The notes under the pieces: model-generated
Database searches by the model: none
What the model was told of the DNA's origin: nothing
The model's input: the letters and a program-made list of their open reading frames with translations, nothing else
Position numbers and translations under genes: made by a program
From: Candidatus Brocadiia bacterium
Lineage (GTDB): Bacteria > Planctomycetota > PUPC01
Direction of reading: 5' to 3'
Length of the DNA stretch: 44,210 nt
NCBI GenBank assembly: GCA_030605345.1
Contig: JAUWIN010000009.1
Location: 1 to 44,210, forward strand
Shown: positions 32,023 to 35,125 of the stretch, piece after piece
How the letters are laid out: each line of letters starts with the position of its first letter
Position numbering within the stretch: the stretch's first letter is position 1

Positions 32023-33945
32023 ATGCGGCTTGATGATAAGCACGTGCGAGCTGACTGTTTGCCGAGGCGGATTGTCGGCTCCGGTCTGGCTCTGGCGCTT
32101 CTGTCCATCCTGGGCCTGAGCGGCTGCGGTAAGACAGCGCAGCAATATCTGGCGGAGGCCCGGGCCACCCCTTCTCTCAAAGAACAGGAGGGATTGCTCT
32201 CCCGCGCGCTGCGGAAGGACCCCGGATACAACGACGCACGGTTTCGACGCGCGTGGGTCTACGCGCTTCAGAAAGAAGACGAAAAGGCCCTGGCCGACTA
32301 CGATGTCCTGCGGAACAACGCCAAATCGCCCCAGGATATTGCCACCATCTTCTACTGGCGCGGCCGGGCGCTCGAAGTGAACGACCGGTTCGCCGAGGCA
32401 GCGAACAGCTACACCAAGGCACTAAATTCCGACCGCTGGCTCCTCAATCCATACCTCGCCCGCGCCGGCGCCTACTTCAAGATGGGCAAATACACCCACT
32501 CGATGGGTGATTATCTCGCCATGCTCGAGCGCGACATCGACCGGCAGGGCACGGCTGTTGCCGAGCGGCGGAGCGGCTGGCGACTCCAGTGCGCCGTCGC
32601 CGCCTTCTGCGCTGGTGAATGGGAGAAAGCTGCCAATGACTTTCAGATAGTGTATTCGGAGACACGCTCACCCGCACGCAGGGCTCGGGCCATGCTCAAC
32701 TTGTATTTCGTCGCCTGCCGGCTCGGCGACAAGCAGACCGCCGACGAAGTATTCAACTCCTATGCCTCGGAGACCCTCTCGCGCCGCCGGCCCGCCGGGG
32801 GCAGGACCCGCTGGATATTCGCCGCTGTCTGGTACGCGGCGGGATTGATTGATGAGCAACAGCTCCTGCAGGCGTCGGCCAGGCAGACCGCCAGCGCACA
32901 TTACTACATCGGCGCCCGGCACCTCGCCAACGGGGCCGATGGGGAGGCGCGGCAGGCGTTCGAAAAGTGCGTCCGCCGCCGCGATCCAACCTCGCTCGAA
33001 TACCACATGGCAAAAGTCGAACTCCAGCGCCTGCTTGTTGGCGGAAAGACGGCTGGCGACTACGTCACCATGGCTCGCAACGCCGATAAGCAGGGGAAAA
33101 AGATCGAACTCTACACCCAGGCACTGAGGGTCAACCCCGACCATTCCGACGCCAGACTCAACAGGGCCATGCTCTACTCGCTGACCGGGCGGCACGACCG
33201 CGCCATCGACGACTATACCAAGTTGCTGAAACTATACACCAGGCCCTCGAACAGGGCTGCGGCGCTGCGGTACCGTGCCTGGACGTACGCGCAGAAAGGC
33301 GACCACCTTACCGCTATCAAGGACTACGAGGCAGCAGTTGAGGCTGATCCGGACTTGTGGCAGGCGCGCGAAGGGCTTGCCGCCTCGCTCTGCTACCTGA
33401 GGAGATACAAGCGAGCCGCCGACGTCTATACCGGCCTCACCAAGCGGATAGCCGGGCGCGGCGTGCAGACCTTCTGGCAACTGGAGCGCGCTTTCGCCCT
33501 GTGCTGCGCTGGTGAATGGGAAACTGCAGCGCGCGATTTCCGCGCCGTCTTGAAGAAAACGGGCGACGCGCCGATCGTGCGCACCAACCTCTACGTCGCT
33601 GAATGCAAACTCGGCAAGGACACCGCCGCAACGGAAGAACTGAACGCCTATGCCAACGAATTAGAAGTGGCCGGCTGGCAACATTTCGTGGCCCGGTACG
33701 CGGCCCGCGTGCTCGACGCGGAAATCTTCATCAAAGGCTCGGAGCATTCTGAACGGAAAACCCAACTGCTGCGCACCTCGCGAGCGTATTACTACATCGG
33801 CGCTCGTAACCTTATCGAGGGTGACAAGGTAGAGGCCCGCGAGGCGTTCGGCAAGTGCGTCCGGCTTGGCCGAAAGGCAGAACGTGAGAGCTGGGAATAC
33901 CGGATGGCTCTGAACGAACTGGCCAGGAAGAGCAACTGGAGATAG
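32023..33945 (+). CDS. TPR lipoprotein with internally duplicated NlpI-like module
   Basis: 640 aa. An N-terminal lipoprotein signal, IVGSGLALALLSILGLSGCG, puts the lipobox LSGC and the lipidated Cys near residue 35, so the mature protein should be membrane-anchored outside the cytoplasm. The rest is helical TPR-type. Residues about 40-335 and 350-636 look like two copies of one unit. Each has CAGEWE-x-AA-x-DF, a VACRLGDK/VAECKLGKD helix, and ends with HYYIGARHLANGADGEARQA or YYYIGARNLIEGDKVEAREA, then F-x-KCVR. This ending resembles the C-terminal module of E. coli NlpI, an adaptor for envelope proteases and peptidoglycan hydrolases. Probably co-transcribed with the next gene, 4 nt away. Confidence 0.85.
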   Translation: MRLDDKHVRADCLPRRIVGSGLALALLSILGLSGCGKTAQQYLAEARATPSLKEQEGLLSRALRKDPGYNDARFRRAWVYALQKEDEKALADYDVLRNNAKSPQDIATIFYWRGRALEVNDRFAEAANSYTKALNSDRWLLNPYLARAGAYFKMGKYTHSMGDYLAMLERDIDRQGTAVAERRSGWRLQCAVAAFCAGEWEKAANDFQIVYSETRSPARRARAMLNLYFVACRLGDKQTADEVFNSYASETLSRRRPAGGRTRWIFAAVWYAAGLIDEQQLLQASARQTASAHYYIGARHLANGADGEARQAFEKCVRRRDPTSLEYHMAKVELQRLLVGGKTAGDYVTMARNADKQGKKIELYTQALRVNPDHSDARLNRAMLYSLTGRHDRAIDDYTKLLKLYTRPSNRAAALRYRAWTYAQKGDHLTAIKDYEAAVEADPDLWQAREGLAASLCYLRRYKRAADVYTGLTKRIAGRGVQTFWQLERAFALCCAGEWETAARDFRAVLKKTGDAPIVRTNLYVAECKLGKDTAATEELNAYANELEVAGWQHFVARYAARVLDAEIFIKGSEHSERKTQLLRTSRAYYYIGARNLIEGDKVEAREAFGKCVRLGRKAERESWEYRMALNELARKSNWR

Positions 33946-33949
33946 CCCC

Positions 33950-35125
33950 GTGGAACTTATCCTCATGCTGGTTATTGCGGCAGCCGGCAACATCGGAACC
34001 AGCGCCGGCGACTACTATATCCGTTCCTTCCACGCTGCCACGCCCCGACAACGCCTGCAACTGCTCAACCAGGCGGTGGAACTCAACCCGAACCACGTGC
34101 CGGCGCTCAGACACCGGGCGCTGGTCCGCTCTGTTCTGGGCGAGAAAAAACAGGCGTTCGCTGACATCATCAGGGCAGCGGAACTTTCACCCGGCGATCC
34201 CGAAATCAACCTCGCCGCGGCCGCATACGCCGAAGAACTCAAAAAATACCACCCCGCCGCCCGGTTCTACGGCCGGGCACTCGCCTGCGAGTGGACGAAC
34301 CCATTCGTCAGAGCCCGGCTCATTCAGGCGCTCATCAAGATTCGAAGAACCGGCCAGGCCCTCAAACACGCTGACCTACTCGTCCAGCGTCTCCCACGGG
34401 AAGACTTCCCCTACGCCGTCCGGGCCGAAGTCTATGAATGGGCCAGCAGGTTTCAAGACGCCGTCGGCGACCTATCGGTACTCGTGCGACGGCACCCGAA
34501 CGACTCGAAGTACTATCTCCGTCGCTGCATCAACTACCGCGCCATGGGAGCGGGCCGGAAGGCACTGGCCGACGCGGAAAAGAGCATCCCGCTCAGAGGA
34601 CTAAGTGGCTACGTTTACGCCGCGCGTGGGTGCTCCTACGAGGTGCTCGGCGAGCTCGACAGGGCGCTTCAGGATTACCGCAAGGCCGCCGAACTCGACG
34701 ACGACAAGCGATACTACATGATATGGTCGTGTATCATCCTCCGAAAACAAGGCAACCGCGCCCAAGCCGACAAACTCATCAAAAACTTTCTACGGCAATT
34801 GGAAGAGGACGGATGGATTGCACCGGTCATCAAATACCTCGCCGGTGAAATAGAAGAAGAAGACGTCCTTCGCCTTGCCAGACACAAAGACCCCGAGACC
34901 ACCCGCCAGCGACTCTGTGAGGCGTATTACTACATCGGTGCCTGCTACCTCGCTGACAACAGGCTCGACCGTGCAGAAGAATTTTTCAGGAAGTGCCTCG
35001 CCCAGCACGTCAACAACTTCTACGAGCACGGTTTTGCCATTCGCGACCTCAGAACCATAGAGAAAATGCGAGCGGAGAAAGCACCAGCACATAAAGAACC
35101 GCGTGTGGTGGACGAGGACAACTAA
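33950..35125 (+). CDS. TPR protein with NlpI-like C-terminal module
   Basis: 391 aa from GTG 33950, 4 nt after the lipoprotein stop. The N-terminus [20 protein letters not shown] looks like a signal peptide, without a lipobox Cys. TPR units follow over about residues 25-290 ([60 protein letters not shown]). The C-terminus has [20 protein letters not shown] and [20 protein letters not shown], the same module as the two copies in the upstream gene and close to the end of NlpI as remembered. An envelope scaffold or adaptor role is inferred. The two genes probably arose by duplication and work together. No promoter is seen between them. Confidence 0.8.

Follow-up and report, generated by a model that had tools for sequence, protein, structure and literature searches.

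NlpI organises cell-wall enzymes in Escherichia coli and has been studied as an enterobacterial adaptor for Prc and MepS, which delivers an endopeptidase of the MepS type to a protease of the Prc/Tsp type. It is described as an outer-membrane scaffold (PMC7049810). It is further described as a dimer formed through a swapped N-terminal helix, in which four acidic residues of the tetratricopeptide repeat (TPR) element TPR2b (D113, E117, D120 and E124) bind Prc, while the MepS contacts lie in helix 1 (L38) and TPR1b (R82) (PMC5686067, PMC11211486). LbcA, the CtpA partner of Pseudomonas aeruginosa, is presented as a monomeric spiral with 11 TPRs, dissimilar to NlpI in primary sequence (PMC8764530). 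Here we describe two adjacent TPR genes that carry three NlpI-like modules in a planctomycete. They lie in a window of 44,210 nucleotides, by which we mean the whole stretch of DNA analysed (positions 1 to 44,210 of contig JAUWIN010000009.1, Candidatus Brocadiia bacterium, assembly GCA_030605345.1). In the open-access literature that was searched there was no paper combining NlpI, TPR and planctomycetes.

Both genes are on the plus strand of the window, where four bases separate the stop of the first from the start of the second. Gene 1 (32023..33945) has orthologs in two other genomes of the family, G001 and G002, and codes for a TPR lipoprotein of 640 amino acids made of two tandem units, delimited by comparison with each other: unit 1 (aa 35-338; 32125..33036) and unit 2 (aa 339-640; 33037..33942). 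Its lipobox LSGC (aa 32-35; 32116..32127) was read from the sequence, and residues G34 and C35 are invariant across the three orthologs. Gene 2 (33950..35125) has a GTG start and codes for an exported-looking TPR protein of 391 amino acids, whose hydrophobic N-terminus (33950..33994) is signal-peptide-like, without a lipobox. In the gene 2 orthologs an Ala-rich stretch stands ahead of a TAxDYY motif. What follows the N-terminus (aa 15-391; 33992..35122) is the putative unit 3, with an N-terminal [TS]AxDY motif as in unit 2 and the C-terminal module. The three copies of this module are located at 32674..33036 and 33574..33936 in gene 1 and at 34706..35074 in gene 2.

The original prediction, made from the letters alone, was that an ending of the form YYIGAR-x-L...EARxAF-x-KC is present three times in the two genes and that a run of bases is kept in all three. 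The run of bases is there: the 13-mer ATTACTACATCGG occurs at 32900, 33788 and 34926, and no other 13-mer occurs at least three times on the plus strand of the window. The protein string describes copies 1 and 2 well (YYIGAR...EARxAFxKC) and copy 3 loosely (YYIGAC...), and its final Cys is absent from gene 1 of both relatives, for which reason we have rejected it as a functional residue. Over the modules the copies are 42–54% identical in DNA. At identical residues the pairs of copies use the same codon in 27 of 45, 15 of 27 and 16 of 30 cases versus 19.2, 12.3 and 13.0 expected, so that the excess over codon usage is small. Given the residues Tyr-Tyr-Ile, finding TAC TAC ATC in all three copies has a probability of about 0.026 from codon usage. 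Codon usage thus accounts for much of the 13-mer, and we dropped the idea of a separate DNA-level signal as unneeded. The 13-mer reflects the conservation of Tyr-Tyr-Ile-Gly together with the genome's preference for TAC and ATC, and the real signal is in the proteins.

At the protein level the evidence is much stronger. The two halves of gene 1 align with 33% identity (102/313) at E 6e-36, and the match of unit 1 to unit 2 as single sequences (2e-29) is far better than that of the best of 13 TPR controls (4.6e-11). One of originally 14 control rows, L078, is part of gene 2 of the family itself and was excluded. Gene 1 is a tandem duplication, as had been proposed. A module profile built from gene 1 only recovered gene 2 at 61.7 bits, against 7.2 for the best of the 13 generic TPR proteins, and in the opposite direction the profile of gene 2 only recovered copy 2 of gene 1 at 37.7 bits and copy 1 at 18.9, against 11.5 for the best control. 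The claim of an ending present three times therefore holds for these two genes, since the module profiles cross-match them above all 13 controls. The window's own genome contains, at E <= 1e-8, exactly three modules and they are these. Judging from such comparisons, the three "endings" are one module of about 120 residues, shared by the proteins far beyond chance.

The module can be connected with NlpI quite specifically. The best match of gene 2 among the sequences of the Protein Data Bank (PDB) is NlpI (phmmer, 1e-11, residues 217–370), and the best NCBIfam match of gene 2 is NF008391, the NlpI equivalog, at 72.9 bits; gene 1 reaches 38.6 bits. The curated cut-off of 250 is not reached by either, and gene 2 is the more NlpI-like of the two, as first suggested. 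Module profile A3 (nine rows including all three window copies, 121 columns) found E. coli NlpI as its best PDB match, with E 1.9e-18 and 69.9 bits over 111 of the 121 columns. The next distinct protein was a consensus TPR (4e-9, 39.8 bits) that covered 33 columns, and the longest of the other matches under E 0.1 was to YrrB, with 88 columns at 6e-5. A control profile of the same length, built on the N-terminal TPRs of gene 2 from all three genomes, had no NlpI among the best 60 of 151 PDB sequences at E <= 0.01. Nor does LbcA figure among the PDB matches listed, an absence that carries no weight. In the 1xnf chain sequence the shared module begins at about residue 149, and the known partner contacts of NlpI sit in the N-terminal half, ahead of it. 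We consider it almost certain, from these sequence matches, that the module is NlpI-specific and related to NlpI.

Predicted structures point in the same direction. AlphaFold models were made without templates. The model of gene 2 had a mean pLDDT of 94.8 and pTM 0.88 with 36 sequences (three of the family plus 33 of 59 usable outside segments), and that of gene 1 a mean pLDDT of 86.3 and pTM 0.57 with 3 sequences. When these models were compared with known folds by VIA-align, the seven best entries were all NlpI for both. Residues 129–377 of gene 2 (34334..35080), which we take from this superposition as its NlpI-fold part, lay on NlpI 35–288 (5wql_B) with Z 27.1 over 248 residues at 2.5 A, whereas the next fold reached Z 23.3 at 5.7 A. 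For gene 1, aa 387–640, within unit 2, lay on NlpI 36–285 with Z 21.2 over 247 residues at 4.2 A. In the models, gene 2 and unit 2 both have the NlpI fold of four TPRs plus non-TPR helices. A search of a viral fold library returned large TPR and other repeat proteins. The relation to NlpI put forward in the original prediction is thus specific in sequence and in predicted structure. The outcome named there as speaking against it, generic TPR helices unrelated to NlpI, was not obtained.

How far the likeness among the three units extends beyond the module is less clear-cut. Whole-unit profiles matched units 1 and 2 at 8.4e-37, units 2 and 3 at 9.6e-23 and units 1 and 3 at 1.8e-15, the last alignment leaving out 73 residues at the start of unit 3. 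With the unit 2 profile gene 2 stands out, at 3e-14 versus 2.2e-9 for generic TPRs. In each of the three family genomes both unit 2 and gene 2 carry the motif [TS]AxDY at their start, whereas it is found in none of 62 module ORFs (open reading frames) outside the family and has two occurrences in 416,960 residues of outside ORFs. The TPR middle of gene 2 is about 75 residues longer than that of unit 2 and is no closer to gene 1 than generic TPRs are. In sequence, gene 2 and unit 2 have both ends in common, and the TPR middle of gene 2 is uninformative.

The arrangement is old within the family. At E <= 1e-20 the profile of gene 1 identified, among 40 relatives, three genomes, the window's own and the two others of the family, and the profile of gene 2 identified the same three among the nine genomes of the class. 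In all three the genes are adjacent. A lipoprotein with a double unit followed by an exported protein with a single unit has been kept across two genera at 42–44% identity. In G001 an in-frame ATG at 6901 overlaps the stop of gene 1, which ends at 6904. Profiles were used for the distribution because many of the matches of single sequences are to TPR parts: searching with the sequence of gene 2 gave 22 of the 40 relatives at E <= 1e-5, many rows matching the TPRs and not the module. A plasmid search with gene 2 returned 7 records, all under 60% identity and with nothing useful.

The module by itself is distributed much more widely. It was found in 32 of 199 genomes of the phylum at E <= 1e-8, including the three of the family, and the loci that carry it are titled Planctomycetota, Geobacter, Myxococcales, Limisphaerales, Succinivibrio and others. 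These loci were chosen by profile match and are not a random sample. Leaving aside the family's own loci, duplicates and modules with less than 75 of the 121 columns, 60 ORFs could be counted, 56 of them with the 3' end inside the locus. In 49 of these 56 closed ORFs the module lay no more than 20 residues from the C-terminus, and in 53 no more than 40. Two modules were found in 1 of the 60 (L081), many loci being cut about 1.5 kb from the match. The module thus caps the C-terminus in most cases, and a tandem such as that of gene 1 is rare among the ORFs sampled. The L081 protein, from genome G160, is encoded on the minus strand (1–2316) and runs off the locus; of an open frame of 1407 aa, 772 are present, with two modules and then a long further region. 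In G018, another planctomycete, the module occurs nine times (E <= 1e-8), and two of these copies belong to neighbouring genes whose N-termini are hydrophobic (L110, 1141–2502 and 2618–4591).

Several observations speak for a place of these proteins in the cell envelope. The N-termini described above fit the lipid-anchored and the secreted protein of the original prediction. Outside the family, we compared 38 module ORFs (loci L036–L108 without the family, at least 250 aa, longest non-overlapping, closed 5' end) with 166 control ORFs from the same loci. Lipobox-like starts were found in 8 of the 38 versus 5 of the 166 (Fisher p 5e-4), by a crude pattern that misses the lipoboxes of both family relatives, which have Pro at that place. 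Export-like starts were found in 24 of the 38 versus 61 of the 166 (p 0.004). A laxer count without controls, on the 60 module ORFs, gave 12 with a lipobox, 28 with a hydrophobic N-terminus, 6 with none and 14 with an open 5' end. An Omp85 protein is present in each of the three family genomes, and so are two transpeptidases, so an outer membrane and peptidoglycan are supported.

With all this in hand, we give about an even chance to the reading that the pair is an anchored cell-envelope scaffold belonging to a wider NlpI-fold group. Three NlpI-like units in two genes would have been in place before the genera of this planctomycete family split, each unit being a series of TPRs finished by a C-terminal half of the NlpI type: helices that include a conserved Trp, a final TPR containing YYIG, and a capping helix with E-Y/H-xxA. 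Gene 1 would provide a lipid-anchored double unit, probably at a periplasmic face of a membrane, and gene 2 a free exported unit with extra TPRs. The TPR grooves would hold client proteins, the C-terminal modules would cap and stiffen the solenoids, and the anchor would fix the site. The periplasmic place, the meeting of the two proteins and the scaffolding job are what we infer. It is unlikely that the clients are MepS handed to Prc. A bolder version, which we regard as rather unlikely, would be a split and triplicated NlpI scaffold in which the covalent double unit replaces the homodimer and the third, free unit binds to that double unit, so that a single anchored platform offers three different TPR grooves and organises cell-wall or envelope enzymes. 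The NlpI fold would then be an old and general envelope scaffold and the enterobacterial adaptor for Prc one late use of it.

A number of points weigh against the anchored scaffold and have to be set beside it. No client, partner or phenotype is known for the pair, the neighbouring ligA and mfd are uninformative on the envelope, and the export test is crude, as the 61 control ORFs that also look exported indicate. In the models, the next row for gene 1 is close (Z 19.9 over 133 residues), the pTM of 0.57 adds to this, and unit 1 did not come up as NlpI in the fold search of gene 1. Foldseek puts other TPR chains above NlpI for gene 2, where NlpI appears from rank 21, and for the gene 1 model had no NlpI in the best 50. 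AlphaFold training drew on solved structures. As for the units, the gene 2 profile matches generic TPR segments at up to 1.1e-17 (n=13, median about 1e-14), and against single sequences its values are 2e-14 (unit 2) and 4.6e-10 (unit 1), weaker than the best generic TPRs. The unit 1 profile barely separates gene 2 (4.9e-12 versus 4.6e-11), and unit 1, in the window and in the relatives, has a weak form of [TS]AxDY and no clear one. As generic segments score equally against the gene 2 profile, we have dropped the triplication of whole units as a shown fact. A common origin of the rest of unit 3 is kept at the level of an inference because the generic controls equal the whole-unit scores, and [TS]AxDY helps here. 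Common origin of all three units is probable, and the whole of unit 3 most likely comes from an ancestor shared with the units of gene 1, its TPR middle having drifted too far to show it.

Among the alternatives, the one that survives best is that these are two exported TPR proteins with a common module and a common operon, working on separate clients with no joint function. Adjacent module genes are also present in G018, and such pairs may arise without a joint role; besides, the TPR middles of genes 1 and 2 are no closer to each other than generic TPRs. We find it doubtful, since the arrangement of a double-unit lipoprotein and a single-unit exported protein has been kept in the two genera at the identities given above.

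A further possibility is an adaptor and activator of the LbcA–CtpA kind, in which the lipoprotein would recruit one of two S41 proteases to the membrane and its TPR spiral would feed it cell-wall enzymes. Gene 1 is, like LbcA, a long lipoprotein with many TPRs and a lipobox, and the window's genome has two S41/PDZ proteases that score above the cut-off of TIGR00225, a model that bears the name prc; one of them carries a CtpB_N-like domain, and TSP_NTD is absent from both. PMC8764530 compares CtpA, the protease activated by LbcA, with CtpB. However, proteases of this type are common, TIGR00225 matching in 11 of 14 control genomes and above the cut-off in 8 of them, and those of the window's genome are on contigs other than that of the pair. 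Client enzymes are also scarce: NlpC/P60 proteins (MepS-type) were found in none of the three family genomes at E <= 0.001, against 9 of the 14 controls, and M23 was found in one of the three. The dissimilarity of LbcA and NlpI in primary sequence described in PMC8764530 also speaks against it. Altogether this adaptor seems unlikely.

A true NlpI, that is, an adaptor bringing a MepS-type endopeptidase to a Prc/Tsp-type protease, is very improbable here. NlpI is the best match of the gene 2 sequence, of the module and of both models by VIA-align, but the NF008391 scores are very far from the cut-off. The partners also fail to appear: TSP_NTD, the N-terminal domain of Prc, was found in none of the three family genomes at E <= 0.01 (among the 14 controls E. 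coli alone was positive), and NlpC/P60 is missing in the same way. The genomes are 89–92% complete, so that a single absence is soft and the same absence in three genomes is better. The positions of the contact residues were assigned by our own TPR register, which for gene 2 starts from the phmmer alignment and is continued backwards without gaps, and for unit 2 is fixed on the TPR consensus. R82 is not kept, being V/T/A in gene 2 and I/L/L in unit 2 of the three genomes. By this register, 1 of the 4 TPR2b positions is acidic in gene 2 of each of the three genomes, and in unit 2 the count is 1 of 4 in the window and 3 of 4 in both relatives, for which reason we do not use the acidic patch as a clean negative. 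The link with a Prc-type protease in the original prediction found no support in these tests, and a Prc/MepS role of the pair is unlikely. Because the NF008391 cut-off and the partner tests failed, genes 1 and 2 are not members of the NlpI equivalog, but they are of the wider NlpI-fold group.

That the two genes are simply generic TPR proteins, with NlpI surfacing merely as another TPR protein, is hardly credible and was rejected: the generic TPR families that are all Pfam gives above its cut-offs, the low Foldseek ranks of NlpI (Foldseek alone would not reject this reading) and the weak long matches of the module to chains such as YrrB are outweighed by the profile controls, with NlpI well ahead of the next protein in bits and columns, by the VIA-align ranking and by the C-terminal position of the module in most outside ORFs.

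The immediate neighbourhood is only partly conserved. In the window, mfd (28435–31848, plus strand) is upstream of gene 1 and ligA, coding for a NAD-dependent DNA ligase (35184..37205, plus strand), is the next gene after gene 2, its start at ATG 35184 being our choice within the ORF 35103–37205. ligA also follows the pair in G001; in G002 one contig ends inside gene 2 and a second one starts inside gene 2 and runs to ligA. The upstream genes vary, with mfd in the window, a DUF2400-like gene in G002, and DUF2400 plus a minus-strand ORF in G001, the only one of these in which DUF2400 was tested with Pfam. This G001 ORF (L029, 3430–5142, minus strand) codes for 571 aa upstream of gene 1 on the opposite strand, is not there in G002 or in the window, and had no match in Pfam (E <= 0.01) or NCBIfam (E <= 0.001); by eye it shows a Cys...His pattern resembling papain-type hydrolases. 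A sigma-70-like promoter, TTGACA-17-TACTAT (31953..31981, plus strand), lies 41 bases upstream of the start of gene 1. It is a consensus match only, with 10 of 12 positions, and the best of 4 promoter-like sites in 31700–35300, where shuffles gave an expectation of 1.1 (sd 1.0).

Further away in the window, a cluster at 18368–28312 with glycosyltransferases, a sulfotransferase, a bacterial sugar transferase, Polysacc_synt_2 and a DegT aminotransferase looks like one for the synthesis of an exopolysaccharide or surface glycan. On the other side, 38299–39000 matches TMEM164 (PF14808, 176 bits) and adjoins a His-rich, DsbD_2-like gene (37231–37944, minus strand).

Coming back to the anchored scaffold and its closest described relative, the likeness to NlpI (NF008391; PDB 1xnf, 5wql, 8xud, 8xup) extends over the modelled fold of gene 2 and unit 2 and over the C-terminal module, and gene 1 is a lipoprotein as NlpI is, whereas gene 2 has no lipobox. 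NlpI is one unit that forms a homodimer, while here two proteins hold three units, and gene 2 has additional TPRs. With the other TPR proteins that carry the module, in loci titled with several phyla, the pair shares its mostly C-terminal place and differs in the two tandem copies of gene 1. The C-terminal module of NlpI is thus present three times in one small planctomycete operon in which neither a Prc-type nor a MepS-type partner was found. If the envelope role is true, the NlpI fold would be older and broader than the job for which it is known, and this pair would be a compact system for asking what NlpI-type scaffolds hold.

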